A stretch of DNA of 53,833 nucleotides from Candidatus Hatepunaea meridiana. Its GTDB lineage: Bacteria > Electryoneota > AABM5-125-24 > Hatepunaeales > Hatepunaeaceae. A model generated the notes under the pieces. The model did not search any database and was not told the origin of the DNA. It worked only from the letters and a program-made list of their open reading frames with translations. Positions 20,020 to 41,382 of this stretch are shown one piece after another. The stretch lies in the NCBI GenBank assembly GCA_030765125.1, contig JAVCDD010000203.1:1-53833 (forward strand). The letters are read 5' to 3'. Numbering within the stretch: position 1 is the first letter of the stretch; each line of letters opens with the position of its first letter. Both the position numbers and the translations under genes were made by a program.

Positions 20020-22896
20020 ATGTATCGTTACTTATCTCTTTTGACTATAATCTTTTTAATAGGATTTGCATTACTGGTTAGCAGTTGTTCCGATGATGAC
20101 AATGGTAATCCTGTTCAGCCTGCTAATGATCCACCAGCAGCGCCATCCAATCCATCCCCAGCGGATAGTGTTGAAAACCTGGATGTGGATGTAATACTAT
20201 CCTGGGACTGTAGTGATCCTGATGGCGATCAGTTAACATATAATCTTCACTTTGGCACATCAGAAGTTCCGAGAATGGTAAGTCATGACAAGACTGAAAG
20301 CAGCTATGAATTTCATGATCTGGAATATAATCAAATTTACTATTGGAAGGTCATTGTAAAAGATGACCATGGGCATAGGACTGATGGTCCAGTCTGGAGA
20401 TTCACAACCATCAACCGACCACCTGATGTCCCCATTGATCCATCTCCGGCAGACAGCGTTATAGATCAGGCATTAGACATTACTTTATACTGGAATTGCA
20501 ATGACCCGGATGATGATTCATTAACTTATGATGTCTTTTATGGAACATCTGAAGACTTGGAATTAGTTAGCGACAACCAGTCAGAACAAAGTTATATCCC
20601 TGAAGGTCTGGAACATAGCACAACGTATTACTGGAAAATCGATGCTAATGATGATAATCTGACGACTGAAGGAGCAATCTGGCGTTTCACAACCGCTCCA
20701 CCAGGTAACCAGCCACCAAATGAACCGACTACTCCTTCTCCTGAAAACGAAGCATCAGAGCAAGCGATAGACGTTAATTTGGACTGGGAATGCAGCGATC
20801 CGGAAGGTGATCCGATGACTTATGATGTTTATTTTGGAACTGCTGAATCTCCTCCTCTTGTCAGCGGTGATGAGACTGAAAGCTCCTATATTCTGGATTC
20901 ATTGGAGTACAACCAGACCTATTATTGGAAGATTATTGCCAGAGATAACCACAATCATTACAGAGAGGGTGAAATATGGCATTTTACTACCCTTAATATA
21001 GTTCCTGATCTACCTGTAAATCCATTCCCTGAAGACGGCGCAGAAGAGCAGGAAGTAGATATTGTTCTATCCTGGGAATGCACTGATCCCGATGGTGACC
21101 CGCTGACTTATGATATCTATCTCGGAATCTATGAAGATGAAGATTCACTGATAACGGTCAGTGAAGAACAGTCTGAGAATAGCTATGAACCTGTTGATCT
21201 ATTATACCGCCAGACTTATTACTGGAAGGTTATAGCTGAAGACAGTAATGGTGGTTCTACCGAAAGTCCGATCTGGCGATTTACTACTTCAATGACAGGT
21301 AATCAACCTCCTAAGGCGCCAAGCGACCCTTCACCTGAAGATGAAGGGATAGTAGATAGTCTTGACGTTGAATTAAGTTGGGAATGTATTGATCTGGATG
21401 GCGATACTTTAATCTTCGATGTTTTTTTCGGTACCTTTGAAGATACATTAATCCAAATAAGTGCAGATCAATATGAAACGAACTATAATCTTCCTGATAC
21501 TTTAATGGTTAATACTCCTTATTATTGGAGGATTATTGCTAAAGATAATCATGATACCACTGAAGGTGCAGTCTGGAACTTTGTAATCAACCATCCACCT
21601 GAAGCGCCGACGGTACTTTCTCCGGTTGATGAAGCAACTGACCAGATGATTTATCTTGGTTTAAGCTGGGAATGCTGTGATCCGGACAACGACCTAATCA
21701 CCTATGAGGTTTATCTTGGTACAACGGGAAATCCATCACGCGTAGAACGCAACCTTGATACCTGTTATTATGAACCGGAAGATATCGAGTATGATCAGAC
21801 TTACTATTGGAAGATAGCAGCAATGGATGATCATGGTCATTCGATTGAAAGCGCAGTTTGGAGCTTCACAACTGCTGAGAATCTGCCACCGGAACTGCCA
21901 TTTAACCCTTCTCCTGAAGACAGAGCAATAGATCAACCGATTGATGTTGTTCTGAGTTGGGAATGCAGCGATCCGTATGGTGATCCGTTGACTTATGAAG
22001 TATACTTCGGCATATCGGAAGAAGACATGGAACGCGTTAGTAGCGATCAGGATGAAACCAGCTTTGATCCTGAAGACTTTGAATATCTGCCTTACTACTG
22101 GAAAGTGGTAGCCAATGATGGTCATGGTCTTGAAACAGAGGGTCCTGTATGGAGCTATGCCACGCCAAGGGAACGTGATTTTGAGCTTGGTGATACTGGA
22201 GTCAACATCTCAATGATCTGGATTCCTTCGGGGGCCTGGGCTTCAACCGGATCATTTATGATGGGCGCCCAACCGAATGAACAGGATGCTGATGATAATG
22301 AGTATCCGCGCCACCAGGTCACTCTGGAGTATGGATTCTGGATGAGTAAGTATGAAGTGACACAGGCTCAATGGGTGGCGGTAATGGGTGAAAACCCATC
22401 AAAGTCTCAAGGTGATAATCTTCCGGTTGAACGTGTATCCTGGAATGACGTCCAGTCCTTTATAAGCAACTTGGAACGTCGCACACCATTCCAATTGCCC
22501 ACTGAAGCGGAGTGGGAGTATGCATGTCGAGCCGGTTATGATGAGACGCGTTTCCCTTGGGGGGAAGACCCTGACTATGAACAACTGAGTGATTATGGTT
22601 GGTTTAGTGAAAACGGCGATGGACAAACACACGATGTAGGCCAGAAACAGCCGAATCCTTGGGGTTTGTTTGATATGCACGGTAATGTCTGGGAGTGGTG
22701 TGCAGATACATACCATAGCAATTATACAGACGCACCAGACGATGGAAGCGCTTGGGTTGAACGAGATGACCATAATTATATCTTCCGAGGTGGAAGCTGG
22801 TTCAGCAATGCAGAATCTTGCCGATCTGCTAAACGCAGTCGGGGTGGTATATCATACTTCAGCTACACGCTTGGCTTCCGTCTTGTACGGAAATAA
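20020..22896 (+). CDS. Lipoprotein with seven FN3-like repeats and an FGE/SUMF1-type domain
   Basis: 958 residues, with AAGGAAG ahead of the ATG. The lipobox VSSC has Cys23, followed by acidic residues. Seven repeats of about 90-95 residues (about 38-720) have the consensus PSPxDxAxxQxxDVxLSWECSDPDGD, then LTYDVYFGTSE and YYWKI. Residues about 725-958 are a formylglycine-generating-enzyme/sulfatase-modifying-factor fold: FMMGAQPNEQDADDNEYPRH, VTQAQWVAVMGENPS, LPTEAEWEYACRAG, GNVWEWCADTYHS, FRGGSWFSNAESCRSAKRS. True FGEs have two active-site cysteines in the last block; the first is Ser here, so sulfatase activation is unlikely. Such domains also act as ligand-binding or structural modules. 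Confidence 0.87.
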   Translation: MYRYLSLLTIIFLIGFALLVSSCSDDDNGNPVQPANDPPAAPSNPSPADSVENLDVDVILSWDCSDPDGDQLTYNLHFGTSEVPRMVSHDKTESSYEFHDLEYNQIYYWKVIVKDDHGHRTDGPVWRFTTINRPPDVPIDPSPADSVIDQALDITLYWNCNDPDDDSLTYDVFYGTSEDLELVSDNQSEQSYIPEGLEHSTTYYWKIDANDDNLTTEGAIWRFTTAPPGNQPPNEPTTPSPENEASEQAIDVNLDWECSDPEGDPMTYDVYFGTAESPPLVSGDETESSYILDSLEYNQTYYWKIIARDNHNHYREGEIWHFTTLNIVPDLPVNPFPEDGAEEQEVDIVLSWECTDPDGDPLTYDIYLGIYEDEDSLITVSEEQSENSYEPVDLLYRQTYYWKVIAEDSNGGSTESPIWRFTTSMTGNQPPKAPSDPSPEDEGIVDSLDVELSWECIDLDGDTLIFDVFFGTFEDTLIQISADQYETNYNLPDTLMVNTPYYWRIIAKDNHDTTEGAVWNFVINHPPEAPTVLSPVDEATDQMIYLGLSWECCDPDNDLITYEVYLGTTGNPSRVERNLDTCYYEPEDIEYDQTYYWKIAAMDDHGHSIESAVWSFTTAENLPPELPFNPSPEDRAIDQPIDVVLSWECSDPYGDPLTYEVYFGISEEDMERVSSDQDETSFDPEDFEYLPYYWKVVANDGHGLETEGPVWSYATPRERDFELGDTGVNISMIWIPSGAWASTGSFMMGAQPNEQDADDNEYPRHQVTLEYGFWMSKYEVTQAQWVAVMGENPSKSQGDNLPVERVSWNDVQSFISNLERRTPFQLPTEAEWEYACRAGYDETRFPWGEDPDYEQLSDYGWFSENGDGQTHDVGQKQPNPWGLFDMHGNVWEWCADTYHSNYTDAPDDGSAWVERDDHNYIFRGGSWFSNAESCRSAKRSRGGISYFSYTLGFRLVRK

Positions 22897-27395: not shown

Positions 27396-27819
27396 GGAAT
27401 TGATTAAGGTCTCACTACCCAAGCTTGGTGGTATGCACAGTGTTTAAAACATTGTCACATCGTCACAGAGAGGGTGCAAAGCCTTTGTGGGTAAGGTCCC
27501 GAGGGTGTGACGATAATGTGATGGAAGGTGACGAAACGAGGTGTTGTAGTGTCGTGGTGTCGGAGTGTTGGGCTACGTAACTGATCTGTACAAATAATCC
27601 AAGTAAAAAAACACAGAAGAAATAATTAGATTATTGCATTTACCTATTTTTCTCATTATATTTAAGTTTTGCCTGTAGAGTGACAGTTTGTATTTGATTT
27701 GGCTTTTTGAACCTTTAATATTTCAATGCCTAATGATTCAGTATGACTATAAACTCTGGATTACCTCTCCCCGATCAGCAAATCGCATCTCAACTAATTC
27801 CGCTTTGCGTTTAGGCGCT
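27396..27819. other. Intergenic stretch with imperfect palindromes, no gene seen
   Basis: TGTCACATCGTCACAGAG (27444 on) and GGGTGTGACGATAATGTGAT (27504 on) form an imperfect inverted repeat. GGGCTACGTAACTGAT (27569 on) matches a string in the repeats at 31.8 and 40.9 kb. An upstream TTG (27688) is in frame with the subtilase gene, but the 44 extra codons are not signal-peptide-like and are taken as non-coding. Confidence 0.5.
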
Positions 27820-29745
27820 ATGAGTAATATCTCTATCATAGTGATTCTTGCATTTATTACGTTCCTGAATATAGCCCATGCCGCATTGAAACCCCGTTGG
27901 ACTCCGCCCAAACCGGAATATACTGTTCTGTCCGATGACTGTTATCGATATTGCATTTCGGTTAAATTCGTCGAAGACAGCAGGATACGTATGCGAGAAA
28001 ACCGGCTTTTGTCATTGTCCGGTCATGACATGTCCCCCTTCAACAGTGTGATGCAGAGTTACAAAACAACCAGCCTGACTCGTCTTTTCAGCCGCCCGGA
28101 ATATCTACTTGAAGCCGAACGTGAAACCGGGCAACAGCGTTCCGGAAAGCAGCTTGGCGACCTCAATAACTACTACAGGGTGATACTCGACTCTTCAGAA
28201 AATCCCGAAAGATTCATCGACGATCTGAACCGACTAAATATCGTTGAGATAGCGTATGCTCAGGCTCATTATGAACTTTGCAATGACATCCCACCTGAAA
28301 CCCCCGATTTCAGTGACAGACAGGGATATCTTTACGAAGCACCGGATGGGATCGATGCGGTTGCAGCCTGGGAGCAGATTGGTGGTAAAGGTGAAAATGT
28401 GAAAACAATCACCATCGAGCTAGATTACGATCATTATCACGAAGATCTGAAGGCTTTGTTCTACCTTAATTATGATGTGTATGGAGTAGGCAACCATGGA
28501 GCAGCCGATGGGGGAATATTGACAGCAGTTCATAATGAATATGGCGTCAACGGTATTTGCCCGGAGTCATCGATTGGAATGTTTGCAATGTTACATTCTG
28601 TTGCAGACGCAATAAACATCTCTTCCGATACCATTGACGAGGGTGATATAATTCTTTGTGAATGGGCTTCCCGGGCAGGCAATGTCCAGGTTCCTGTGGA
28701 ATATTTCCAGGAAAACTTCGACGCTATCGAAACCGTTACAGCTAATGGAATAGTATTTATTGAACCTGCATCCAATTCTAATGCAGATTTGGACGATGAG
28801 AGGTTTGAAGGAAGGTTTAATCCGGAGAGAAGACATTCAGTAGCAATATTCGTTGGTGCAGGTGCGCCACCTTCGGGAAATCATGGCGAACCAAGATCGA
28901 GAATAGAATTCTCAAACTACGGTTCGCGATTAGACCTTCAGGCATGGGGCAGAGAGATAGTGACTTGTGGACTTGGCGATCTGTTCTATCCCAATGAAGA
29001 TCACCGGCAAATGTACACCTCGAATTTTAATGGCACAAGCGGAGCCTCTGCCATTGTTGCCGGTGCAGTTGCATGCCTGCAGGGAATGTGTAAAACCCGA
29101 ACCGACGGTCAGATATTACTTACGGCTGAAGAAATCCGTGATATCCTTGTTGGGACCGGAACGCCGCAGAACCGAAATGGACATCAGGGGCATATAGGTC
29201 CTCAGCCTGATTTAGCTGAAGCGATGGAAGAACTTGAGTTTCCTTTCGGCTATTTAAGCGGTACGATAACCGACGCTGAAACAGAAGATCGAATAGCCAA
29301 CGTTTCAATCAGAACGCGTTGTGAGGAAACGCAGGCGGATGAGGAGGGTAACTGGATAATTGCTGAGGCGATAGCGCTCGGTGAAGTGTACATAACCACT
29401 ACCGCAGAAGGTTATAATGATTCGACCAGTGTGATCCTTGATTTTGAAGAGGATGACAGGCTTGAGATAAATATGAGTCTCCTGCACCCGGAGTTTATTT
29501 TGTCAGACAGTTCTGTGAATCCTGCCTTGGAAACTGAATCTTCGTTTGAATACCCTTTTACAATTGAGAACAATGGAAATGGCTTTCTGGACTGGTCTGC
29601 AGAAAAGACTATTATTAATGATAGTGATGTTGTTGATTGGGAATTGCGCAATTCACACAATGCCGGTGAATTATTGGATGACCACAGGCTTGGCGGTGTT
29701 GTTTACGTGGATGACAGGTATTACATAATCCTACCAAATACCTGA
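27820..29745 (+). CDS. Subtilisin-like (S8) serine peptidase with catalytic-Asp substitution, CTD lost by frameshift
   Basis: 641 residues from ATG 27820, followed by a signal peptide (ISIIVILAFITFLNIAHAA). The peptidase domain spans about 175-490. The His block is VGNHGAADGGILTAV (His226), the Asn region IEPASNSN, and the Ser block FNGTSGASAIVAGAV (Ser407). The usual VIDxG block reads TITIELDYDHYHEDL: the position of the catalytic Asp is Glu200, with Asp two residues later. From memory, a minority S8 subgroup has a DIE...HEDL block of this kind, so activity is not excluded. A carboxypeptidase-regulatory-like domain (about 495-570) and an Ig-like piece follow. The frame then stops at 29743-29745, and a CTD continues in the +1 frame. 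Confidence 0.8.
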   Translation: MSNISIIVILAFITFLNIAHAALKPRWTPPKPEYTVLSDDCYRYCISVKFVEDSRIRMRENRLLSLSGHDMSPFNSVMQSYKTTSLTRLFSRPEYLLEAERETGQQRSGKQLGDLNNYYRVILDSSENPERFIDDLNRLNIVEIAYAQAHYELCNDIPPETPDFSDRQGYLYEAPDGIDAVAAWEQIGGKGENVKTITIELDYDHYHEDLKALFYLNYDVYGVGNHGAADGGILTAVHNEYGVNGICPESSIGMFAMLHSVADAINISSDTIDEGDIILCEWASRAGNVQVPVEYFQENFDAIETVTANGIVFIEPASNSNADLDDERFEGRFNPERRHSVAIFVGAGAPPSGNHGEPRSRIEFSNYGSRLDLQAWGREIVTCGLGDLFYPNEDHRQMYTSNFNGTSGASAIVAGAVACLQGMCKTRTDGQILLTAEEIRDILVGTGTPQNRNGHQGHIGPQPDLAEAMEELEFPFGYLSGTITDAETEDRIANVSIRTRCEETQADEEGNWIIAEAIALGEVYITTTAEGYNDSTSVILDFEEDDRLEINMSLLHPEFILSDSSVNPALETESSFEYPFTIENNGNGFLDWSAEKTIINDSDVVDWELRNSHNAGELLDDHRLGGVVYVDDRYYIILPNT

Positions 29746-29935: not shown

Positions 29936-30024
29936 GCGGCAACACCGTTGACACAACATATTCTACTGCAACGTTATTAATTTCGGTATCCTTGCATAAT
30001 GGCATTTTAAATAATGTTTTCACT

Positions 30025-31761
30025 ATGATCAGAAACTTTACAATATTACTCATTTTAATATGCAATATAGTCTATGCCCAACCGCAAGTTATATGGCATA
30101 GAATCTTCAGTGGCAGATGGTGTGATAGATGTCTTGAAGTAATACAGACTCCAGACAACGGTTATGCTTTAGCAGGAGAAAGAGGTTATGGTGTTTCACC
30201 AAATATTAAAACGGACTTTTACCTTGTGAGAACTAACGAAAATGGTGATAGTTTATGGTCTCGACATTATGGTGGAAATGATGGTGAAAATTGTTCCGCA
30301 ATTCTTCAAACAGAAGATGGAGATTTTCTTCTCGCGGGCAAAACCGAAAGTTACGGTGCTGACTTCTCAGATGGGTGGATAGTTAAAACCGATTCGGAAG
30401 GAGATGTAGTCTGGTCACGAACTTATGGCAGAGATTCAGAATTTTTTAGTTCAATCATCCCTATTACTGACAACCGGTATGCTTTAATTGGAATGGGTGG
30501 CGCCTGGAACTACTACTTTGTAATAATAGATGAAGATGGTGAGGAGCTTTTTGCTGATGAGTACGGTGGCAGAGGAGCTGAATTCGGACGAAGCCTCGTT
30601 CAAACTCCAGATGAAGGATTTCTACTGGCGGGATCGAGTACTTCCTTTGGTGAAGGTGGCTACGATATGTACCTGATTAAGATAGATGAAGAAGGCGAAA
30701 TCGAGTGGACACAGACCTATGGTGGTGAAGCCAATGATTACTGCCAATCAATTATTAGAACTATTGATGGTGGTTATGCTTTAGCCGGTGGAACAAGAAG
30801 CTACGGTGCAGGTGAGGTTGATTTCTACTTAGTTAAAATTGATGAAGATGGTGAAGAACAATGGTCGAGTACTTATGGCAGACGTTATGATGATCTGTGT
30901 TTTTCCATGCTCCAGTTGGAAAACGGTGATTTTGTTCTGGCTGGGTATTCAAACAGACGAGATGAAGGAAATGGTGATGATTTTTATATAATTAGAGTTG
31001 ATTCCTGTGGTGAGTTAATATGGGAACAAAACTTTAATTCAGGCAGATTGATTAATGAGGTGTGTTACTCTCTAATCCAAACATCCGACGGTGGTTATGC
31101 GCTTGCAGGTAAAAGTAATCTTATAGTAGGAAATAGTTACGATTTCTATTTGGTTAAGCTTGGCACCGACATGATCGCCTGGCTGCCTCTTCCCGACAGC
31201 AGTTTCATTGAAGGCGATTCCCTGATTTATGACATAGAATACTTCTACGATTACTTCATTCCTACTGCATATCAGGATTCAGTCCTTGCCTTTTCAGTTG
31301 ACGACGGCGAACATATCTACGGTGTATTTGAAGAAGAACGTTTAATCATAACCGCAGAAGAAAACTGGTTTGGCGTCGATTCGCTGATGCTTACCATAGC
31401 TGAAGCTGACAGCGAGGATAACTGTGACAGCGCCTGGTTGCATCTTACAGTCGAGGAAAACAAGGATGTCAACGATGTTACCAATTACCCTCTCCCACTA
31501 TCCTTCACCCTTCACAATGCCTTCCCTAATCCTTTCAACTCACAGACCCGGATAGCCTACAATCTGCCTCAAGCAGGATTAGTCACTCTAAACGTCTATG
31601 ATATAACCGGCAGGCAGGTAACGACGTTGGTTGATGGAGTTATGAACGGAGGGCGATATTCGGTTGTCTGGGATGGGGGTTGTTTGATGTCCGGATTGTA
31701 CCTTGTCCGGATGAAAACGCCAGAGGGGGTGTGGATGACAAAGATGGCGTTGGTGAAGTAG
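30025..31761 (+). CDS. Secreted propeller-repeat protein with T9SS CTD
   Basis: 578 residues from ATG 30025 (signal peptide NFTILLILICNIVYAQ), preferred over an in-frame TTG at 29992. About six or seven blade-like repeats (about 25-395) carry TxDGGYALAGxTxSYGxGxxD, then YLVKIDExGEExW, with a TYGG link. They are the same family as in the 17.5- and 38-45 kb genes. An Ig/cadherin-like segment (about 400-485) ends WLHLTVEE. The type A-like CTD starts at about residue 499 (FPNPFNSQTRIAYNL, LNVYDITGRQV, SGLYLVRMKTPEGVWMTKMA). The last 20 codons and the 3' flank recur at the end of the gene at 43842-45579 and, detached, at 40857-40935. Function unknown; likely surface exposed. Confidence 0.82.
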   Translation: MIRNFTILLILICNIVYAQPQVIWHRIFSGRWCDRCLEVIQTPDNGYALAGERGYGVSPNIKTDFYLVRTNENGDSLWSRHYGGNDGENCSAILQTEDGDFLLAGKTESYGADFSDGWIVKTDSEGDVVWSRTYGRDSEFFSSIIPITDNRYALIGMGGAWNYYFVIIDEDGEELFADEYGGRGAEFGRSLVQTPDEGFLLAGSSTSFGEGGYDMYLIKIDEEGEIEWTQTYGGEANDYCQSIIRTIDGGYALAGGTRSYGAGEVDFYLVKIDEDGEEQWSSTYGRRYDDLCFSMLQLENGDFVLAGYSNRRDEGNGDDFYIIRVDSCGELIWEQNFNSGRLINEVCYSLIQTSDGGYALAGKSNLIVGNSYDFYLVKLGTDMIAWLPLPDSSFIEGDSLIYDIEYFYDYFIPTAYQDSVLAFSVDDGEHIYGVFEEERLIITAEENWFGVDSLMLTIAEADSEDNCDSAWLHLTVEENKDVNDVTNYPLPLSFTLHNAFPNPFNSQTRIAYNLPQAGLVTLNVYDITGRQVTTLVDGVMNGGRYSVVWDGGCLMSGLYLVRMKTPEGVWMTKMALVK

Positions 31762-31788
31762 GGGATTGGAATGCGGAATGATTTCCCC

Positions 31789-31816
31789 GGCTTCGGAGAA
31801 ACCGGGCTACGTAACT
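31789..31816. repeat. REP-like palindrome CCGG-TTCGGAGAAA-CCGG
   Basis: TTTCCCCGGCTTCGGAGAAA followed by CCGGGCTACGTAAC sits just after the stop of the propeller gene. The same unit, diverged, is at 40927-40960, and its right end is at 27569-27584. The first two copies follow a shared CTD tail, so they may have travelled with it. Confidence 0.6.
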
Positions 31817-31880
31817 GAGTTGAGGTTTCGCTTTGCTAAGGAAAATAACTTATAATATCCTATAGAGAGCAGCTTAATCC

Positions 31881-31909
31881 TTGACATTTTGCTTTCTATT
31901 GTGTATATT
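31881..31909 (+). promoter_or_regulatory. Sigma-70-type promoter
   Basis: TTGACA (31881-31886), a 17-nt spacer and TATATT (31904-31909). It is the same pair as before icd. The next open frame begins only at 32268, which leaves a leader of about 350 nt interrupted by a terminator. Confidence 0.7.
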
Positions 31910-31915
31910 GCTTAA

Positions 31916-32108
31916 TGAGATTAGCATGTAGCAGGTTTTTTGATTAGTCGTGGTAAATCATTACTTAGAATAGAGCAGAAGATGTTTCAGTGTTATTACA
32001 AATACAGAAGTTTCCCAACAAGACCCGGATCCGTAGGTTCTGGGATTGATGGTGTCAGTTTATAATGCCCCGTCCGAGCAAAGCGCTTTGGCGGGGTATT
32101 TTTATTTT
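31916..32108 (+). ncRNA. Candidate small RNA or attenuator leader
   Basis: The segment between the promoter at 31881-31909 and the terminator ending about 32108 is some 190 nt long and has no credible ORF. It can fold: TCCCA (32014-32018) with TGGGA (32041-32045) encloses AGACC and GGTTCT, and the terminal hairpin follows. I recognise no Rfam-type family (not 6S, SRP or tmRNA by eye). It could be an independent sRNA or a regulated leader of the giant beta-helix gene. Confidence 0.4.
32065..32108 (+). terminator. Rho-independent terminator
   Basis: ATGCCCCG (32065-32072) pairs with CGGGGTAT (32092-32099), with one G-U pair. The loop holds the palindrome CAAAGCGCTTTG. A T-rich tail runs TTTTTATTTT to 32108. 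No gene ends just upstream, so it terminates the transcript from 31881-31909 or attenuates it. Confidence 0.7.
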
Positions 32109-32267
32109 GAGGCGGTAACGCTTCAATAAAAAGACATCGGGCGCGTCTGCCAACATTGAAACAAAGCGCTCGGTAACAGTAAGAAAGGGGCTGACACGGG
32201 GGTGACCCTTTGGATACCACTCTATAATAAAAATTGACCCGTGGAACATTTAATTAAGGAGATTACA

Positions 32268-35200
32268 ATGAAAGCGTACAAAAGTTCGTTTGGTCTGGGT
32301 TTGATATTAGCCATGTGCTTCATTGCATCGCTATCTTTCGCTCTGGATGACCATGTCAATTGGCCAGCAATATTGCCGGAAAGCTTAGCGCCGTTGGAGA
32401 ACGTGGAGGCCGGACAGTTCTTTCTTTTGGATCAGGCAGCGATCAATAATCTTGCTGATCGCAATAATGGAGTGATCACACTTGTTAATCAAAACAAAAT
32501 CGAAGATAATATGGGTGATGTACCCGAGGGTGTGGAGCAAATTCAACCATTAGACTATTTTGATGATGTGGACTACATCATTATGTCTGATCTTATCTTT
32601 GGAGACCTCGACGGGGAAGCATCGGCTGATTTAGTTATCACCACTGATGATGGAGATAATCAGGGTCCGGTCACCATCTGGTTTGCTCTTTCGTCGGGAA
32701 CCCAGGAAGACCCTGAAGGCCAAATAGAGGTGGATGAAGAAGGCTGGTATGGGTATTGCGGCGGTATTACCCAAGTCTGTAAATTCGTCTTCCGTAACGA
32801 ATTTACGTTCACCTGCGGAGAAGCTGAAGGTGATCCGAGTATTTTCACAACATGGCCTCTTGAGTTCATAGACGTTGAAGACCCAGAAAATATAGAGCTT
32901 GTATTAGGCGGGCTGGCGGATTATTTCATTATTGATGATGCATTAGGCGGAGACTGGCCCAATGAGGATTATAGTCGCTTCTTTTGGTATGATGAAGAGG
33001 ACATTATTCATCTCGATCCGTTTCTTCCTTGGACGGATAGGGCATGCGCAGGCGGTTTTATTTTTGAGTCACCTGGGCAACACACAATAATCAATACAAC
33101 TTTTGAATATTTAATTGGAACTGCTGACTTACAATCAACCCTTGAGGATGATCCCCATGGCGATGGACAACTGAGAGTATGGGATGCCGATCCGGGGGAC
33201 GCTTACGCGATCAAGTTAGCAGGCAATGGTGGGACTATTGTCTTCAACTCATCAATTATTCGGAATAGCTATTTCCACGGGATATTCATTGAGGGAGATG
33301 ACTGGACTGTAAATATCGAAGGTGGAAGCGTAGAACAGATAGGCTATACGATACCACGCCTACTTGTAGGGGATGATCCAGAGGAAATTGAACCCGCGCC
33401 CATCAACGACATCGGTGATGGGATTTCATTATTCAGTGATGACAACGCTCTAATTATAACCAATAACGCTGAAGTTCGTTCAAATTTTGCTTCAGGAATT
33501 CAAGTTCACCATCATTCCGGAAATGACATTGACATAGATGGAGCTACGGTAATCAGGAATAATGGTATTGCCGGTATAGAGTTGGATGATTGTCCAGCAG
33601 CAAATACTGTAGATGTAACCGAGGCATCCGTGATTTATCAAAATGATCTCGGTATTTTAGTATTCTCTTGTTTCCAGAACCGGATTAATCTTTCAAATGT
33701 CGATATTAACAGGAATACGACGGGTATTTCAATTAAAGGCGGAAGTTTCAACCGGATCGATTGTGATCATTGTATAATTGATGGAAGTGAAGATCCACGC
33801 CAACAATGTGGCATTCAGTTAATCCGAACATCGCAAGAGGAAGAGACCTCCGATAACATTATTAATCTACAAAATTCAACACAAATAATTAACCATTCAA
33901 TTAATGGTATAGATGTCTCTCATTCGGATCGAAACAAAATCAATATTGGAACCGTTAATGGTGATTGTGAAATAAATTGCAATCTGGGTAAAGGTATTAA
34001 TCTATACCTGAGCGACGACAATGAAATCAAGATTGATAACCAGTCAAATGTATATAATAACAGAGGAGATGGCATACTGATCCAAGGGATTATTACCGAT
34101 AACGTTAGAAATGAATGTATTAAAAACAAAATCCAAATAGATAACCAGAGTCATGTAAATCACAACGGTATTATTTTTGGAGATCCTGAAGACCCTGAAG
34201 ATCCTGATGTACATCTAGAACGTAGCGGTATAAAACTCAAGGTCACGGGGAAAACCACTGTTGAAGTGCTCGATCATTCAACCGTTAACAATAACGGTGA
34301 ACATGGTATACACGGCATTGCCAGTATAAAGGACACCATCAAATTGGGCGATAATTCGTTCACTAATTTAAACAACAAATCAGGAATCAAAATAATGAGT
34401 TGGGCTCTTTCGGAGGATGCCTATATTGCACGCCTATGTCAAGTAAGTCTGGAGGGAGCATCCGAATCAAATCAAAATAAGGGCATCGGGGGAGACGATG
34501 ACAACAACGGTGGTGTTGTAATGATCGGAGACCGGCATACGATTATTTTAGATAATTCGACATGTAATCAAAACGGTACGGAATTAGTAGGTAATGAAGA
34601 GGGAGGATACGGAATCCGAAACAAAGCGTATGCAGGGGAAGCTGATACCTACAGTCGGACCTTCATCACAAACAACTCATCTGTGAATGGTAACGGGCAC
34701 ACAGGAATAAATTGTGTAAGATGCAAGGAATTGGAAGTAACCGATTCTGAGGTTCAGGGCAATGGTTTGGACGGTATTCATGTCGTGAAACCCGGTACCG
34801 ATGGTGGATCATCCAGTCTTACAGTAAATATATCAGGATCCACAATCGGCGGTGAGGGGAATTTGGGCAACGACGGTGATGGTATTGAGATAGATGGGGA
34901 CAGGGTATTTTGCGAAGTTTTTTCGATCAATGTTGGTAATGTTGAAAACGAGACCAGGATTGAGAATTCTACGGAAAATGGACTACTTATTTTAGGCGTA
35001 CCATCTAACTGGCAGAATTTTACACCGGAAATCAATCTGATCAATTCCGATTTTGTTGATAACAATATAGGCGTCTATCTAACTGAGGGAGAATGGAGTA
35101 AAGATATAATTGTAAGTGGGTGTGAATTCACTGGAAATGAGACCGCAGGAATTAGACTGTTCTACGAAAAGTACACAAGATTAGACATACTCGCAACTGA

Positions 35201-36119
35201 CTTCGACAATAATTCAACTGGAGTGATGATCGGCGATTATGAGGGAGGTATGGACTTTTGTGATGGACTTGATTTAAGAATTATGGATCTATGCACGTTT
35301 ACAAATGCTACTAATTGTGGCATTTTCGTGCACGGTGAAAGTGAAAGTGAGATTGAAGGTTGCCGCCTTAAGGTTCTCATTGAAGGAGCTACCTTCAATG
35401 CTAATGAAGAAGCCCACATCAAATTCCTGGGTGGTCCACTTAAAGGGTGGATAGATTCAGAAACGTGGAGTGATCATGCTACGATCCGTAAGTGTTATTT
35501 TGAAAATGGGAATATCGGTGTGGATCTCGTCCAACACGAACCAGATGAGGAGGATACCGACCAGCCCGATGTCCATATCAGGAACAACTACTTCGTTGAT
35601 GTGCAGGAAGCAGGGGTGCGCTTGGAATACTACGATTTTGACGACGATAATGAAGGCAGAACTGTTATCTATAATAATACCTTTTGTCTCGTAAATGAAG
35701 ACGAGGATAGTCAGATAGGAGTCAGTATTGTCAATACTGACGATGGCAATGACCCTCGGCTTGATCAGGAGAGCATTTCCTTCAACATTTTTAGCGAACT
35801 TCCCAATAGTGTTGCCTTCGATCAAGATGTCGGTTTTACCATGTGGTACAACTGCTTCTTCGATGCGCCGGTGTCGCACTGCGCCGAACCTGAAGTAGAT
35901 AATGGCAATATCCTCGCGGATCCACAGTTTAACGGAGGTGAAGATCCGGAAGAGCGATTGCTTTGGACTTCACCTTGCATTAACGCTGCTACGGATGTCG
36001 AATACCTTCAGGAGGTGGAAATTGCTGTATTCGGCGATACGACAGTAATTAACGAAATCGAGTACGCAAGTTTGCAGACTTTGGCTGCACCGGAGGAGGA
36101 TATACCGCCGGTATATTAG
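32268..36119 (+). CDS. Giant right-handed beta-helix surface protein, part 1 of a frameshifted gene
   Basis: 1283 residues from ATG 32268, with AAGGAG at 32256-32261 and a signal peptide (SFGLGLILAMCFIASLSFAL). After about 250 residues, including an LDG-like acidic region, there is a long beta-helix (about 265-1250) of repeats such as NNNGEHGIHG, NGNGHTGINC and RNNYFVDVQEAGVRLEYYD, typical of NosD/PbH1 solenoids. It stops at TAG 36117-36119 without a CTD. Between about 36068 and 36077 the sense switches to another frame (ADFGCTGGGYTAGILDHHHY), which runs on into the ORF at 36173. One indel therefore splits an original gene of 32268-37927, about 1885 codons. Confidence 0.8.
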   Translation: MKAYKSSFGLGLILAMCFIASLSFALDDHVNWPAILPESLAPLENVEAGQFFLLDQAAINNLADRNNGVITLVNQNKIEDNMGDVPEGVEQIQPLDYFDDVDYIIMSDLIFGDLDGEASADLVITTDDGDNQGPVTIWFALSSGTQEDPEGQIEVDEEGWYGYCGGITQVCKFVFRNEFTFTCGEAEGDPSIFTTWPLEFIDVEDPENIELVLGGLADYFIIDDALGGDWPNEDYSRFFWYDEEDIIHLDPFLPWTDRACAGGFIFESPGQHTIINTTFEYLIGTADLQSTLEDDPHGDGQLRVWDADPGDAYAIKLAGNGGTIVFNSSIIRNSYFHGIFIEGDDWTVNIEGGSVEQIGYTIPRLLVGDDPEEIEPAPINDIGDGISLFSDDNALIITNNAEVRSNFASGIQVHHHSGNDIDIDGATVIRNNGIAGIELDDCPAANTVDVTEASVIYQNDLGILVFSCFQNRINLSNVDINRNTTGISIKGGSFNRIDCDHCIIDGSEDPRQQCGIQLIRTSQEEETSDNIINLQNSTQIINHSINGIDVSHSDRNKINIGTVNGDCEINCNLGKGINLYLSDDNEIKIDNQSNVYNNRGDGILIQGIITDNVRNECIKNKIQIDNQSHVNHNGIIFGDPEDPEDPDVHLERSGIKLKVTGKTTVEVLDHSTVNNNGEHGIHGIASIKDTIKLGDNSFTNLNNKSGIKIMSWALSEDAYIARLCQVSLEGASESNQNKGIGGDDDNNGGVVMIGDRHTIILDNSTCNQNGTELVGNEEGGYGIRNKAYAGEADTYSRTFITNNSSVNGNGHTGINCVRCKELEVTDSEVQGNGLDGIHVVKPGTDGGSSSLTVNISGSTIGGEGNLGNDGDGIEIDGDRVFCEVFSINVGNVENETRIENSTENGLLILGVPSNWQNFTPEINLINSDFVDNNIGVYLTEGEWSKDIIVSGCEFTGNETAGIRLFYEKYTRLDILATDFDNNSTGVMIGDYEGGMDFCDGLDLRIMDLCTFTNATNCGIFVHGESESEIEGCRLKVLIEGATFNANEEAHIKFLGGPLKGWIDSETWSDHATIRKCYFENGNIGVDLVQHEPDEEDTDQPDVHIRNNYFVDVQEAGVRLEYYDFDDDNEGRTVIYNNTFCLVNEDEDSQIGVSIVNTDDGNDPRLDQESISFNIFSELPNSVAFDQDVGFTMWYNCFFDAPVSHCAEPEVDNGNILADPQFNGGEDPEERLLWTSPCINAATDVEYLQEVEIAVFGDTTVINEIEYASLQTLAAPEEDIPPVY

Positions 36120-36172: not shown

Positions 36173-37927
36173 TTGGAAGCGGATGATTATGAAGTCATAG
36201 ACAACCTGACAGTTACGAGTGGTGATATGTTGACAATCAATCCTAACACGGCTTTCTTCCTATATGAGGATGCTTTGATCAAGGTTTACGGCGGGATAAC
36301 CGCCAACGGCTGGGAAGAGGATGAGCGTCGCATCTGCTTCACTAATTTTCCAGGTGAAGATTGCTGGGATTGCATTTACTTTTATAATCCCAACCGTGAA
36401 TCAACTCTTGATGGCTGCACTATTCTGAACGGGCACTACAACGTGCGCTTATACGATCCATCGCTGCCGTCAGCTTCACGAGTAAGAGTGGATCGTTGTT
36501 ATATCGGAGGTTCTTGTTCCAGCAATATCAGATTGTATGGTCCAATTCAGTTGATTTGTGAACGTACGGAAATCACTGAAGCCGGTTTCGTCGGTGTATA
36601 TATTGCCTACAACACCCCCGCGCAGGCAAGTCAATTCAATGAGGTTACAATCACCGATAACGGCACGAATCAATATGAATGCGGAGTGAGAGTTAAAAGT
36701 AGTAACGCTGTCTTTAACGCCTGCGAAGTCTCCTTAAACTACGGTTATGGATTTTATCTGTACAGTGATGCTATTATAACTCTCAATGAGGGTCCGAATT
36801 TTAATACTCCGAACCTGGTTTACAATAATGGTCAAAGCTTAGACCAGAATCACGATTACCTTGGTGCGGAAATTCGTGTTCGGAATGGATCAGCGCCAGA
36901 GTTAGGTCCCACAAACCTTTGGGATATTGATGATGAAGGTCAGGGAGAAGGTGATCGATTAGGGAAATTCATATCCAAGGATGACACTGCTCCCGATGCT
37001 CTCACTTTAGATGGAAGTCATCTGGGAGATGGTTGGCATGGTGCTGAAGACTGGGATGATGAGGATGATGAAATGCTTCAGGCGCATTTCTGGTGGGATG
37101 GAGCAGGTGAACTCAACACTACTAACACATCGCATCTTTATCTTGATGACGGACCGCCGATACCCGACAGCTTTGAGGATTTCGAATATGCAAGAATGCT
37201 GCACGAAGGAGGCGAGTATGCCCGAGCCATCGATCTTTACTGGCGGTTCATTATAGATGGGGATTACACTGCCACCAAACGCATTGCACTTGTTCAACTT
37301 CAGTCGTGTTACATCGGTTTAAACGATGACTGGGATGAATTCGGATCGCGTTGCCTCCAGGTTGCCGAAAGAAACGCAGAAGACCAAACCTACTTTGGTT
37401 GGTCGGCGAGAAAGCGCGCCTGTTTCGCTGCATTCTATGATAACAGACCGGAGAGAGCAATAGAAGAACTAAGAAGTCTGCTCAATGAAGCTCCCTATCC
37501 GTCCGACAGTCTCTGCGTGGAGATGGATATTCTCTGGATTGAAAACACGCTTGAAGACCACGTTGATGCAACCGGTAATGGATTGGCGAGAATCTTAGTT
37601 CTGGAAGATATGCTGGAAACCATCGACGAGGGACGGGAAAGTAAACTTAATCCCAATGTTCCAATGTCTTTTGTCTTTAATCCAGCGTATCCTAATCCCT
37701 TCAACTCGACAACATCCCTGCGGTTCTCAATGCCTCAGGAGGCGCTGGTAGAGATCAAAGCTTATGACCTTTCCGGGCGTTACGTAAATACCGTTATCAA
37801 TAAGGTGCGGGCAGCGGGCGAACATCAGCTTAACTGGACGGCAGATGACCTTCCTTCCGGAACGTATCTCATCCGGTTCAAGGCGTCTGAATTCAAAACT
37901 ACTCAGAAAGTAACATTGATCAGATGA
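36173..37927 (+). CDS. Part 2 of the giant gene: beta-helix, TPR-like region and T9SS CTD
   Basis: 584 codons from the TTG at 36173. The same frame is open and protein-like from about 36077 (FGCTGGGYTAG, then HHHYNIINDVDITEDTELEA), so the TTG is not a true start. Domains: beta-helix with cap LTVTSGDMLTINPNTAFF (to about 310), TPR-like helices (about 330-475, ARMLHEGGEYARAIDLYWRF; AAFYDNRPERAIEELRSLLN), and a CTD (YPNPFNSTTSLRFSM, EIKAYDLSGRYVNTV, SGTYLIRFKASEFKTTQKV). The TPR-to-CTD half is homologous to 43135-43845 and to the fragment at 40971-41382. It has no signal peptide of its own. TGA overlaps the next ATG (ATGA). Confidence 0.82.
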   Translation: MEADDYEVIDNLTVTSGDMLTINPNTAFFLYEDALIKVYGGITANGWEEDERRICFTNFPGEDCWDCIYFYNPNRESTLDGCTILNGHYNVRLYDPSLPSASRVRVDRCYIGGSCSSNIRLYGPIQLICERTEITEAGFVGVYIAYNTPAQASQFNEVTITDNGTNQYECGVRVKSSNAVFNACEVSLNYGYGFYLYSDAIITLNEGPNFNTPNLVYNNGQSLDQNHDYLGAEIRVRNGSAPELGPTNLWDIDDEGQGEGDRLGKFISKDDTAPDALTLDGSHLGDGWHGAEDWDDEDDEMLQAHFWWDGAGELNTTNTSHLYLDDGPPIPDSFEDFEYARMLHEGGEYARAIDLYWRFIIDGDYTATKRIALVQLQSCYIGLNDDWDEFGSRCLQVAERNAEDQTYFGWSARKRACFAAFYDNRPERAIEELRSLLNEAPYPSDSLCVEMDILWIENTLEDHVDATGNGLARILVLEDMLETIDEGRESKLNPNVPMSFVFNPAYPNPFNSTTSLRFSMPQEALVEIKAYDLSGRYVNTVINKVRAAGEHQLNWTADDLPSGTYLIRFKASEFKTTQKVTLIR

Positions 37928-39393
37928 TAGCTATTCTCAAACAGATAATGATTTATGTGGGGCGGTTATTTTGCCGCCCTGCACTAATCCTATGGTTGTC
38001 AATGTCATTATTGGCGCTGCTGAACTCGCAACTTATCGCTCAACCCGATACATTGTGGGTTAGATACTATGATATGCATTCTTGTTATGACATGAAACCT
38101 GTTTCAGACACATCATTTGCGTTGGGTGGAAGTACAAATTCTCTCGAGAGTAGAGGAGATTTCCATCTGGTAGTAACCGACACTGCCGGCAGGGAATTGT
38201 GGAACCGTGTTTTAGTTGATACAGGTAGATGGAATAGTCATGTTTCCAGCATTTCATTGTCAGACAATGGAGAATTGATGTACATGGTCGGTACAGGTCG
38301 TACTCCATCTGATGGTTCGGGATTTATCGCTCTATTAAGTTTGGAGGGTGATTCCCTGTGGATGCTTCCCTATGGGGGATTACTTGCATATTTAACAACC
38401 TCACTCCCTGATGAAAACGACGGTGTTTATGTTGCAGGATCTACGAACGATTACAACGAATACGGATCACGCGACGGTTACCTGCTTAATGTCGATGAGG
38501 AAGGTGAGGAGCTATGGTATCAGGTTTATGGAGGAGAAGGAACCGACACCTTTTCTGACATGGTGCATACGCAGGATGGTGGATTTGCATTGGTTGGTAG
38601 AACCTCATCGTTTGGTGGAGGGGGACAGTTTTACTTAGTTAAGACGGATTCACGTGGTGAAGAACAGTGGTCCGGTGCTTATGGTGATTCTGTTAATTCT
38701 GACATAGCGGTGACAATTGGTGAAATGCCTGACGGAGGTTTCGTTATGGCAGGATGGACAGCGCAGGGAATACATACTGATATGCTGGTTATCCGCGTAA
38801 ATGAAGAAGGGGAAGAAGTTTGGCAAAGATGTATCGAGGATCGTGAGAAATTTCGAGATCTCGTAGTTTTACCAAATGGTGATTTTGTGTTGGCAGGTGA
38901 TGGTCCCGGCACACCGCATGACCTGATTCTAATACGTATGAATGAAGACGGCGAGATCATCTGGGAAGCTACCTGGGATATGCCTGGGCGGTCACAATGC
39001 TACTCGGTGGTGATGTTACAGGACGGAGGATACGCGCTTGCTGGACACTTAACCGGTAGTCCTGTATTCCTGGCACGCACCGAACCCGATCCGGTCAATG
39101 CAATATGGGAAGTCGATCCTTCCTTTCCAAGTTTGTTTACGCTTCATTTACCTTACCCCAACCCCTTCAATTCGATGACATCATTCAAATTCTCACTGCC
39201 TCAAGAGTCGCAGGTTGAGATCAAAGCTTACGATCTTTCCGGGCGTTACGTCGATACCGTTGTCAATATAGTGCATGCGGCAGGTGTACATCAATTAAAC
39301 TGGACGGCTGATGACCTTCCTTCAGGAATGTATCTCATCCGATTCGAGGCTTCGGAATTTAAAACGACTCAGAAAGTAACATTGATCAGATGA
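37924..39393 (+). CDS. Secreted propeller-repeat protein with T9SS CTD, tandem copy 1
   Basis: 489 residues. The ATG overlaps the preceding TGA, so translation is probably coupled; no ribosome-binding site is visible. A signal peptide (LILWLSMSLLALLNSQLIAQ) precedes blade-like repeats (about 45-390; DGGFALVGRTSSFGGGGQFY, LVKTDSRGEEQWSGAYGDS) and a CTD (YPNPFNSMTSFKFSL, EIKAYDLSGRYVDTV, SEFKTTQKVTLIR) close to that of the giant protein. The next gene has exactly the same length and is near-identical over long stretches, e.g. from SVDEEGEELWYQVYGG onward. A palindrome lies in the signal-peptide codons. Role unknown; a surface display protein is inferred. Confidence 0.82.
   Translation: MIAILKQIMIYVGRLFCRPALILWLSMSLLALLNSQLIAQPDTLWVRYYDMHSCYDMKPVSDTSFALGGSTNSLESRGDFHLVVTDTAGRELWNRVLVDTGRWNSHVSSISLSDNGELMYMVGTGRTPSDGSGFIALLSLEGDSLWMLPYGGLLAYLTTSLPDENDGVYVAGSTNDYNEYGSRDGYLLNVDEEGEELWYQVYGGEGTDTFSDMVHTQDGGFALVGRTSSFGGGGQFYLVKTDSRGEEQWSGAYGDSVNSDIAVTIGEMPDGGFVMAGWTAQGIHTDMLVIRVNEEGEEVWQRCIEDREKFRDLVVLPNGDFVLAGDGPGTPHDLILIRMNEDGEIIWEATWDMPGRSQCYSVVMLQDGGYALAGHLTGSPVFLARTEPDPVNAIWEVDPSFPSLFTLHLPYPNPFNSMTSFKFSLPQESQVEIKAYDLSGRYVDTVVNIVHAAGVHQLNWTADDLPSGMYLIRFEASEFKTTQKVTLIR
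37959..37980. repeat. Palindrome in signal-peptide codons (GGGCGG...CCGCCC)
   Basis: GGGCGG (37960-37965) and CCGCCC (37974-37979) form a hairpin with an 8-nt loop around codons 12-19 of the gene starting at 37924, encoding GRLFCRP. An equivalent palindrome is at the same place in the next three CTD genes. Confidence 0.7.
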
Positions 39394-40859
39394 TGGTTTT
39401 TGTTAAACAGAACGTAAATATTACAGGGCGGCTATTATGCCGCCCTGCACTAATCCTATGGTTGTCAATGTCATTATTGGCGCTGCTGAACTCGCAACTT
39501 ATCGCCCAACCTGACACATTGTGGGTTAGATACTATGATATGCATTCTTGTTATGACATGAAACCTATTTCGAATTCCACTTTCGTTTTGTGCGGTAGTA
39601 CTAATTCACTTGAAAGCCGTCGTGATTACCATGTTTTGTTAACTGACAGTACCGGTGAGGAGTTGTGGGAGCGTCTATTGATCGATACAGGCAGGTGGAA
39701 TTCGGATGCCTATGATGTTTCGATCTCAGATGATGGAGGTTCAATCTACTTAGTAGGCGATGGGCGTACACCATCGGATGGATCGGGATTTATTGCGCGG
39801 ATAAACATGGAAGGTGATTCTCTCTGGATGCTTCCCTATGGGGGGCTACTTGCATATTTAACAACCTCTCTTCCTGATGAAAACAACGGTGTATATGCAG
39901 CAGGATCTACGAACGATTACAGCGAATACGGATCTCGTGACGGTTACCTGCTTAGTGTCGATGAGGAAGGCGAGGAGCTATGGTATCAGGTTTATGGAGG
40001 GAGGGCTACAGATACCTTCTGGGACATGATTCGCACAACCGACGGTGGATTTGCCTTGACGGGTCAGACTTCATCGTTTGGTGGCGGGGGACAATTTTAC
40101 CTGGTGAAAACCGATTCCGTCGGTGAAGAGCAGTGGTCCGGGGCTTATGGTGATTCTGTTAATTCTGAAATTGCTGTGACAATTGGTGAAATGCCTGACG
40201 GCGGTTTCGTTATGGCAGGATGGACAGCGCAGGGAATACATACTGGTATGCTGGTTATCCGTGTAAATAATGAGGGTGAAGAGCTTTGGCAAAGATGTAT
40301 AGAAGATCGTGAGAAATTTCGAGATCTCGTAGTTTTACCGAATGGTGATATTGTATTAGCAGGTGACGGTCCCGGAACTCCCGAAGACCTTATTCTAATA
40401 CGTATGAATGGAGACGGCGAAACCATATGGGAAGCTACCTGGGATATGCGGAGACCCTCAGAATGTCACTCGGTGGTGATGTTACAGGATGGTGGATACG
40501 CGCTTGCAGGACACCTAACCGGTAGTCCTGCATTCCTTGCTCGCACCGAACCCGATCCTGCCAATGCCATCTGGGAAGTCGATCCTTCATTTCCGAATCT
40601 GTTTACACTTAATCCCGCCTATCCCAATCCCTTTAACTCGACTACAGCCCTGCAATTTTCACTGCCACAGGAGTCCCCGGTCGAAATCAAAGCTTATGAT
40701 CTTTCCGGGCGATATGTCGATACCGTTATCAATATGGTACGAGCGGTTGGCGTACATCAGCTTAACTGGGAAGCTGATGACCTTCCCTCAGGAATGTATA
40801 TCATTCGCTTTGAGGCGTCTGAATTCAAAACTACTCAGAAAGTAACATTGATTAGATGA
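39390..40859 (+). CDS. Secreted propeller-repeat protein with T9SS CTD, tandem copy 2
   Basis: 489 residues, the immediate tandem duplicate of the gene at 37924 (offset 1466 bp), again with an ATGA overlap to the gene before. The signal peptide LILWLSMSLLALLNSQLIAQ is identical to copy 1. Divergence is concentrated in the first repeat region (STFVLCGSTNSLESRRDYHV against SFALGGSTNSLESRGDFHLV). The CTD is YPNPFNSTTALQFSL, EIKAYDLSGRYVDTV, SEFKTTQKVTLIR. Directly after TGA the DNA continues with the tail of a different CTD gene, so the 3' boundary is a recombination joint. Confidence 0.82.
   Translation: MMVFVKQNVNITGRLLCRPALILWLSMSLLALLNSQLIAQPDTLWVRYYDMHSCYDMKPISNSTFVLCGSTNSLESRRDYHVLLTDSTGEELWERLLIDTGRWNSDAYDVSISDDGGSIYLVGDGRTPSDGSGFIARINMEGDSLWMLPYGGLLAYLTTSLPDENNGVYAAGSTNDYSEYGSRDGYLLSVDEEGEELWYQVYGGRATDTFWDMIRTTDGGFALTGQTSSFGGGGQFYLVKTDSVGEEQWSGAYGDSVNSEIAVTIGEMPDGGFVMAGWTAQGIHTGMLVIRVNNEGEELWQRCIEDREKFRDLVVLPNGDIVLAGDGPGTPEDLILIRMNGDGETIWEATWDMRRPSECHSVVMLQDGGYALAGHLTGSPAFLARTEPDPANAIWEVDPSFPNLFTLNPAYPNPFNSTTALQFSLPQESPVEIKAYDLSGRYVDTVINMVRAVGVHQLNWEADDLPSGMYIIRFEASEFKTTQKVTLIR
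39424..39447. repeat. Palindrome in signal-peptide codons (CAGGGCGGC...GCCGCCCTG)
   Basis: CAGGGCGGC (39424-39432) and GCCGCCCTG (39439-39447) pair perfectly around a 6-nt loop, at codons 12-20 of the gene starting at 39390. Confidence 0.85.
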
Positions 40860-41382
40860 AAACGCCGGAAGGGGTGTGGATGACAAAGACGGCGTTAGTG
40901 AAGTAGGGGATTAGATTGCGGATTGATTCCCCAGGTTTCGGAGAAACTAGGCTACGTGGCTGTTTTTAGAAATGGATATCCTGTGTGCGGAGGAGACAGC
41001 CGAGTTAATGCACACGGATGATGCCAGTTCCATTCATAAGCATATCACCGAGACCGAAGAGCAGATATTGAAAGACTGCTTGCAGAGGAGGAAGAGAAAC
41101 AGGTGCTGCCGCTCCTGCCATCAGAGATTGAGCTGACAGCAGTTTACCCCAATCCCTTCAACAACGTCGTTCAGATTCAGTATGCCCTTCCGGAAGATGC
41201 TGATATCAGGCTGGTGGTCTATGACATGACGGGTCGTGAGATTGCGGTTTTGTTCAGCGGTGGTCAGGCTGCAGGAACACATCAGACATTCTGGAGTAGT
41301 CAAGGTGTGGCATCGGGTTCTTATGTTCTTTGTCTGGAATCGTCAGGCGTGACCGAAACCCAAAAACTGGTACATATATTAA
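40857..41382 (+). pseudogene. Mosaic of two CTD-gene fragments
   Basis: Fragment 1 (40857-40935) reads MKTPEGVWMTKTALVK plus TAG and then a 3' flank, as at 45530-45612 and 31709-31790. It is joined to the previous gene through a shared GATGA. A REP-like unit follows (40927-40960). Fragment 2 (40962-41382) matches 43425-43845, the end of the TPR-CTD gene: MDILCAEETAELMHTDDASS, then after a 2-nt insertion (near 41069) ERLLAEEEE, SEIELTAVYPNPFNNVVQIQ and SGSYVLCLESSGVTETQKLV. A further 1-nt change removes the stop, so the frame drifts into the next gene. It has no start or signal peptide. The longest open piece (41103-41534) is an artefact of this decay. Confidence 0.82.

Follow-up and report, generated by a model that had tools for sequence, protein, structure and literature searches.

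A candidate non-coding transcription unit of about 190 nt ahead of a giant beta-helix gene in Candidatus Hatepunaea meridiana

What is encoded between the secreted protein gene at 29992-31761 and the giant beta-helix gene that follows it on the plus strand in Candidatus Hatepunaea meridiana? A first-pass annotation of this intergenic region saw a promoter, a foldable segment without an ORF and a terminator in succession, and proposed either an independent small RNA or a transcription-attenuation leader. The region was re-examined within the whole stretch of DNA available (hereafter the window, 53,833 nt), which comes from a genome (G000) of 5.31 Mb in 382 contigs that is 92% complete. The element appears to be a self-contained non-coding transcription unit of about 190 nt belonging to a tiny lineage-specific family, and the chances that it works as a trans-acting small RNA are roughly even. 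It is probably a regulatory RNA of an ordinary kind, specific to this lineage. The features on which this reading is built are collected in Table 1; the likely start of the beta-helix gene is the ATG found after AAGGAG.

Table 1. Features in and around the element (window coordinates)
Feature	Position	Strand	Remarks
Conserved stretch 5' of the promoter	31815..31880	+	Common to copies C119 and C154; blastn homology from 31815
Sigma-70-like promoter TTGACA-N17-TATATT	31881..31909	+	11/12 consensus matches; hexamers at 31881-31886 and 31904-31909
Predicted transcript, about 190 nt	31916..32108	+	Both ends inferred from promoter and terminator positions, unmapped
Conserved core, including GAAGATGTTTCAG	31938..32018	+	72% identity to the G003 relative (blastn)
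ATG frame of 27 codons, probably not coding	31982..32065	+	Same frame in C119
Intrinsic terminator (hairpin at 32064-32100, then a T-rich tail)	32064..32108	+	-22.7 kcal/mol; same hairpin in C119
Downstream element CTTCAATAAAAAGACATCGGGCGCGTCTGCCAA	32121..32163	+	Outside the predicted RNA; common to G003
Possible separate promoter for the beta-helix gene, GTGACC-N15-TATAAT	32202..32228	+	10/12, short 15-nt spacer; weak
Giant beta-helix gene	32269..36119	+	ORF listed as 32241-36119, from GTG 32241; Pfam Beta_helix 6.5e-14

The promoter described by the first-pass annotation is indeed present, and taken by itself it is no more than chance would provide: sites with at least 11 of 12 matches number 4 when both window strands are counted, and 100 order-1 random windows give 1.64 on average (sd 1.30). 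What lifts the element above chance is its copies. A complete paralogue in the same genome (C119:3395-3685) runs from promoter to terminator at 82% identity (E 1.1e-74), and a partial one (C154:1543-1738, 83% identity, E 6.9e-48) follows the element to 32007 only. Both keep a promoter with a 17-nt spacer, TTGACT-N17-TACATT in C119 and TTGACA-N17-TATATT in C154. Upstream, 31815-31894 is 85-95% identical to C119 in 20-nt bins, and C119 and C154 have a still longer stretch in common (527 nt at 86.7%). C154 has its terminator half replaced or missing; its promoter leads straight into an ORF for a secreted protein, with about 226 nt from the -10 hexamer to the ATG. The search of the own genome scored the best 40 of 88 nucleotide candidates, so that the paralogues number at least two. 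Homology to C119 ends at 32102, inside the T-tract of the terminator, and the genes beyond it are unrelated, a beta-helix gene in the window versus an LVIVD propeller gene in C119; the unit thus seems to travel without its neighbor gene.

A further relative is found in another genus of the same family (G003), at 68.6% identity across 229 nt, covering 31938-32163 of the window. The core and the position of the hairpin are kept across the two genera, whereas the promoter sequence is not conserved. This relative also precedes a giant beta-helix gene (1286 aa), and the conservation that had been named as a check on the proposal is therefore borne out by two paralogues and one copy from another genus. 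A co-oriented, secreted-looking gene lies 3' of the element in 4/4 copies, although the base rate of such neighbors is high because genes of this kind fill the window. In the G003 locus (L021, about 4476-4730, minus strand), the counterpart of the window's AAGGAG..ATGAAA (32257-32274) leads to an early stop, and the G003 beta-helix ORF starts about 200 nt beyond that stopped start region.

Beyond these copies the family seems to end. The core profile scores of all four far exceed those of random sequence, and a four-copy profile finds only these four convincing among 9 family genomes (best 150 of 1202 candidates scored in G000) and nothing else convincing among 39 phylum genomes (at most the best 70 candidates per genome). 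Weak copies may be missed in such searches because only the best candidates were scored. Weak matches in other genomes have E values of 0.07-0.6. L012 and L014 were judged to be chance, the former lying by eye within an apparent ATP-synthase gene set. When the promoter-proximal part alone is the query, it returns the three own copies and then short weak matches only. A pattern scan of a named genome collection, which may omit records close to the own genome, recovers a single record, JABMRV010000184.1 ("bacterium isolate bin.11"), that of G003. Phages, plasmids and viral contigs hold no match to the element, and an origin from any of them was rejected on that ground. The beta-helix protein P0001 has an orthologue in 1 of 9 family genomes, its own.

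The terminator hairpin with its T-rich tail, as announced by the first-pass annotation, ranks first among the plus-strand candidates of the window in a custom scan (runner-up -16.8 kcal/mol), and the best hairpin in n=8 order-1 random windows also reaches -16.8 kcal/mol. It was missed by a scan tool because its stem has an internal mismatch. Published mean energies are -20.2 kcal/mol for 3' terminators and -16.5 for the 5' terminators of attenuators, and the window terminator is nearer the first value than the second (PMC2965389). The same hairpin accounts for the folding: the full predicted RNA of 193 nt has a z of -2.88, but this is due to the terminator, and the remaining AT-rich body (31916-32060) is at chance versus shuffles (z -0.72, and 0.02 for the C119 equivalent). 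The "foldable segment" thus holds for the whole RNA and fails for its body. When the window, C119 and G003 are aligned, the terminator hairpin takes up 43 alignment cells, 97.7% of them paired in register, against 41-61% in slid versions of the alignment. These pair counts take in three sequences, C154 being left out because its hairpin half is missing (in alignment A1 it is badly aligned beyond 32007). Covariation, also suggested as a check, yields one compensatory pair, but 155 of 500 shuffles of these three complete sequences do as well. The alignment fits a conserved hairpin without going far to prove it. In G003 the T-tail of the hairpin is poor.

The region is not strictly "without an ORF", since it contains an ATG frame of 27 codons. 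If this frame encoded a small protein or a leader peptide (27 residues), that could explain why the start codon and the reading frame at the 5' end are common to all four copies, and why the stop codon adjoins the terminator hairpin in both the window and C119. Against this, the synonymous/non-synonymous codon changes number 0/5 between the window and C119, 0/9 between the window and G003, and 1/6 between C119 and G003 (few sites), so nearly all are non-synonymous. The frame has 27 codons in C119, 9 in C154 and 18 in G003, its end thus differing in the last two, and no conserved Shine-Dalgarno sequence was found before it among the copies. A coding function was rejected on the codon changes and the shifting frame ends, and we consider it very improbable. 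With no sign of coding selection the frame is probably not coding, and the earlier wording stands in that sense. The conserved leader peptide that would mark a leader-peptide attenuator is likewise not seen.

The first-pass proposal is thus partly supported; between its two roles we only lean, toward the small RNA. Several traits expected of an independent small RNA gene are found here: its own predicted promoter, kept in both own-genome paralogues, an intrinsic terminator within the predicted transcript, and, on few sites, no coding constraint. The sequence itself shows the copies, how far they are conserved, that the terminator is strong and that coding selection is absent. Transcription from the housekeeping-type promoter would yield about 190 nt of RNA before stopping at the strong intrinsic terminator. 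Most transcripts would end near 32103-32108, giving a stable small RNA with the terminator hairpin as its stabilizer, and the conserved, weakly structured core (31938-32018) would then most likely base-pair in trans. Transcription, the efficiency of termination, the pairing and any target are predictions of this scheme; the copies themselves lie at the front of gene clusters for secreted proteins. Also in its favor, the complete unit is kept before unrelated genes, and a TATAAT lies beyond the terminator in both complete own-genome copies, where it could serve the gene separately (in C119 as CTGGTA-N15-TATAAT, 9/12, with a poor spacer). Other features weaken it. The copies are four, three of them complete; the body folds at chance level and the covariation is within that of shuffles; C154 looks like a leader, and G003 has a poor T-tail and a promoter that is not conserved.

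The first rival is a 5' leader with attenuation, which we regard as possible though less probable than the small RNA. The promoter at 31881 would then serve the beta-helix operon, with a signal deciding between a stop at 32108 and read-through. The terminator does lie between the promoter and the gene to be regulated, the element stands before a co-oriented secreted-protein gene in every copy, and in C154 the same promoter and leader run into the gene without a terminator. The stretch from the terminator to the beta-helix start holds no promoter candidate that reaches 9/12 with a spacer of 16-18 nt. Attenuators that stand ahead of non-homologous genes are known (PMC2965389). However, the terminator is very stable (-22.7 kcal/mol), and thermodynamic folding, which considers the RNA without any protein, revealed no antiterminator shared by the copies. 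When the transcripts are truncated ahead of the 3' arm, the CCCC core is unpaired in C119 (p <=0.05) and mostly unpaired beyond its first C in the window, while G003 has no shared upstream partner. Nor is there any Rfam riboswitch or T-box in the window. A specialized NusG paralogue is equally lacking: G000 has a single NusG match (in a genome that is 92% complete), hence no sign of an antiterminator of the LoaP/RfaH type (LoaP/RfaH/UpxY). The sequence GGCGGTAACGC at 32111-32121 is ops-like; control of the ops/LoaP type at this site was rejected, as only one NusG was found.

The roles of small RNA and leader may not be exclusive, by analogy with Rli51 of Listeria monocytogenes, which is reported to be both an attenuator and a trans-acting sRNA (PMC11394854). 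As in the element, a short RNA is there made by termination before a secreted-protein gene. For Rli51, however, an alternative antiterminator fold is predicted (PMC11394854), whereas none is common to the copies of the element, and no sequence relation is claimed. A bolder scheme would have the promoter-RNA-terminator cassette duplicate before different secreted-protein operons, the terminated RNA pairing in trans with sister leaders and thereby switching the operons jointly or singly; such an RNA-controlled regulon we hold to be a long shot.

The preference for a small RNA must also be set against a third explanation, in which the element has no RNA function of its own and is the duplicated remnant of the promoter and leader of a secreted-protein gene, with ATGTTTCAG as the old gene start. 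This reading draws on two subtilase paralogues, one in the window (27504-28373) and one in C150 (L022 1368-2224), whose 75.5% identity reaches the upstream region. Each may carry an N-terminal extension, M(F/I)QYDYKL, followed by what looks like a signal sequence, and at the 5' end of their ORFs (window 27.7 kb, and C150) stands ATG(T/A)TTCAGTATGACTATAAA, similar to the motif of the element. In the window subtilase the motif comes 70 nt after TTGCAT-N17-TATATT, a similar distance to that in the element, where the TATATT at 31904 precedes it by 72 nt (77 in C119, 74 in C154). The C150 gene scores 14.1 bits against the profile and the window subtilase 8.8, the best of 60 random windows being 8.6. 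The likeness, of borderline significance, hints that the element arose from a subtilase-like gene of this type, of which it would keep the 5' end and the promoter. That it is nothing else than a remnant is unlikely in our view, since the likeness covers little sequence at significance values near the limit (E 0.138 and 0.15), and the short hairpin architecture found in two genera is unexplained by decay alone.

No known RNA family could be recognized by the first-pass annotation, and this was confirmed: Rfam 15 gives no match at gathering score in the whole window, and a lax search of 31762-32270 returns best E values of 2.8, 3.6 and 5.3. A known family was rejected accordingly. 6S RNA is about 190 nt long and has its own promoter, two traits in which the element resembles it. 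It was rejected as an identity, as the element has no Rfam match, lacks the long closing stem between its ends and the long rod with paired ends, and has several paralogues. Among systems described elsewhere, the attenuator "regulons" and mobile attenuators come close, in that similar terminator-bearing elements stand before unrelated genes in one genome (PMC2965389). The element differs from these in three respects: it has no phage, plasmid or viral match, its copies carry the promoter too, and its terminator is stronger than the 5' terminator mean (PMC2965389). In Flavobacterium psychrophilum, structured 5' transcribed regions and independent transcripts have been mapped experimentally (PMC9723704). 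These are the same kinds of transcripts, and the paper also mentions type IX secretion; the lineage is another one, and the transcripts are mapped there and predicted here (PMC9723704). The literature on type IX secretion with small RNA, leader or attenuation has this lineage in no title among the matches listed. If the reading is right, an uncultured lineage that abounds in secreted beta-helix proteins and in proteins with type IX tails would have a small RNA or terminated leader without an Rfam family, and this would offer a first handle on the control of its secreted-protein repertoire. Its general interest is limited, because lineage-specific small RNAs and leaders are common.

Other elements surround the unit. 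The one downstream of the terminator reads CTTCAATAAAA..GACATCGGGCGCGTC..GCC..AAATGGAAACA, with inverted GC-rich arms. Its two copies in G003 (L021 4765-4814 and 11207-11248, minus strand) are both 5' of beta-helix genes, so that it occurs in two genera, 5' of three such genes. Upstream, a dispersed palindromic, REP-like repeat, TTTCCCCGGCTTCGGAGAAACCGGGCTACG, occupies 31762-31831 (mainly 31783-31816). It lies at the 5' end of the query and makes up 43 of the 46 own-genome matches listed, the query itself being one of the 46; it occurs on both strands of many contigs, with a second window copy at 40907-40957. In C154, at about L010 165-290, there is a weak DNA match to the end of an FGE-sulfatase-domain gene (window 22785-22835), and a 34-residue reading of the same stretch resembles the template repeat of a diversity-generating retroelement. 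Farther along the window, 37924-39393 and 39390-40859 form a tandem duplication; each encodes a secreted protein of 489 aa with Por_Secre_tail, and the two proteins are 82% identical.
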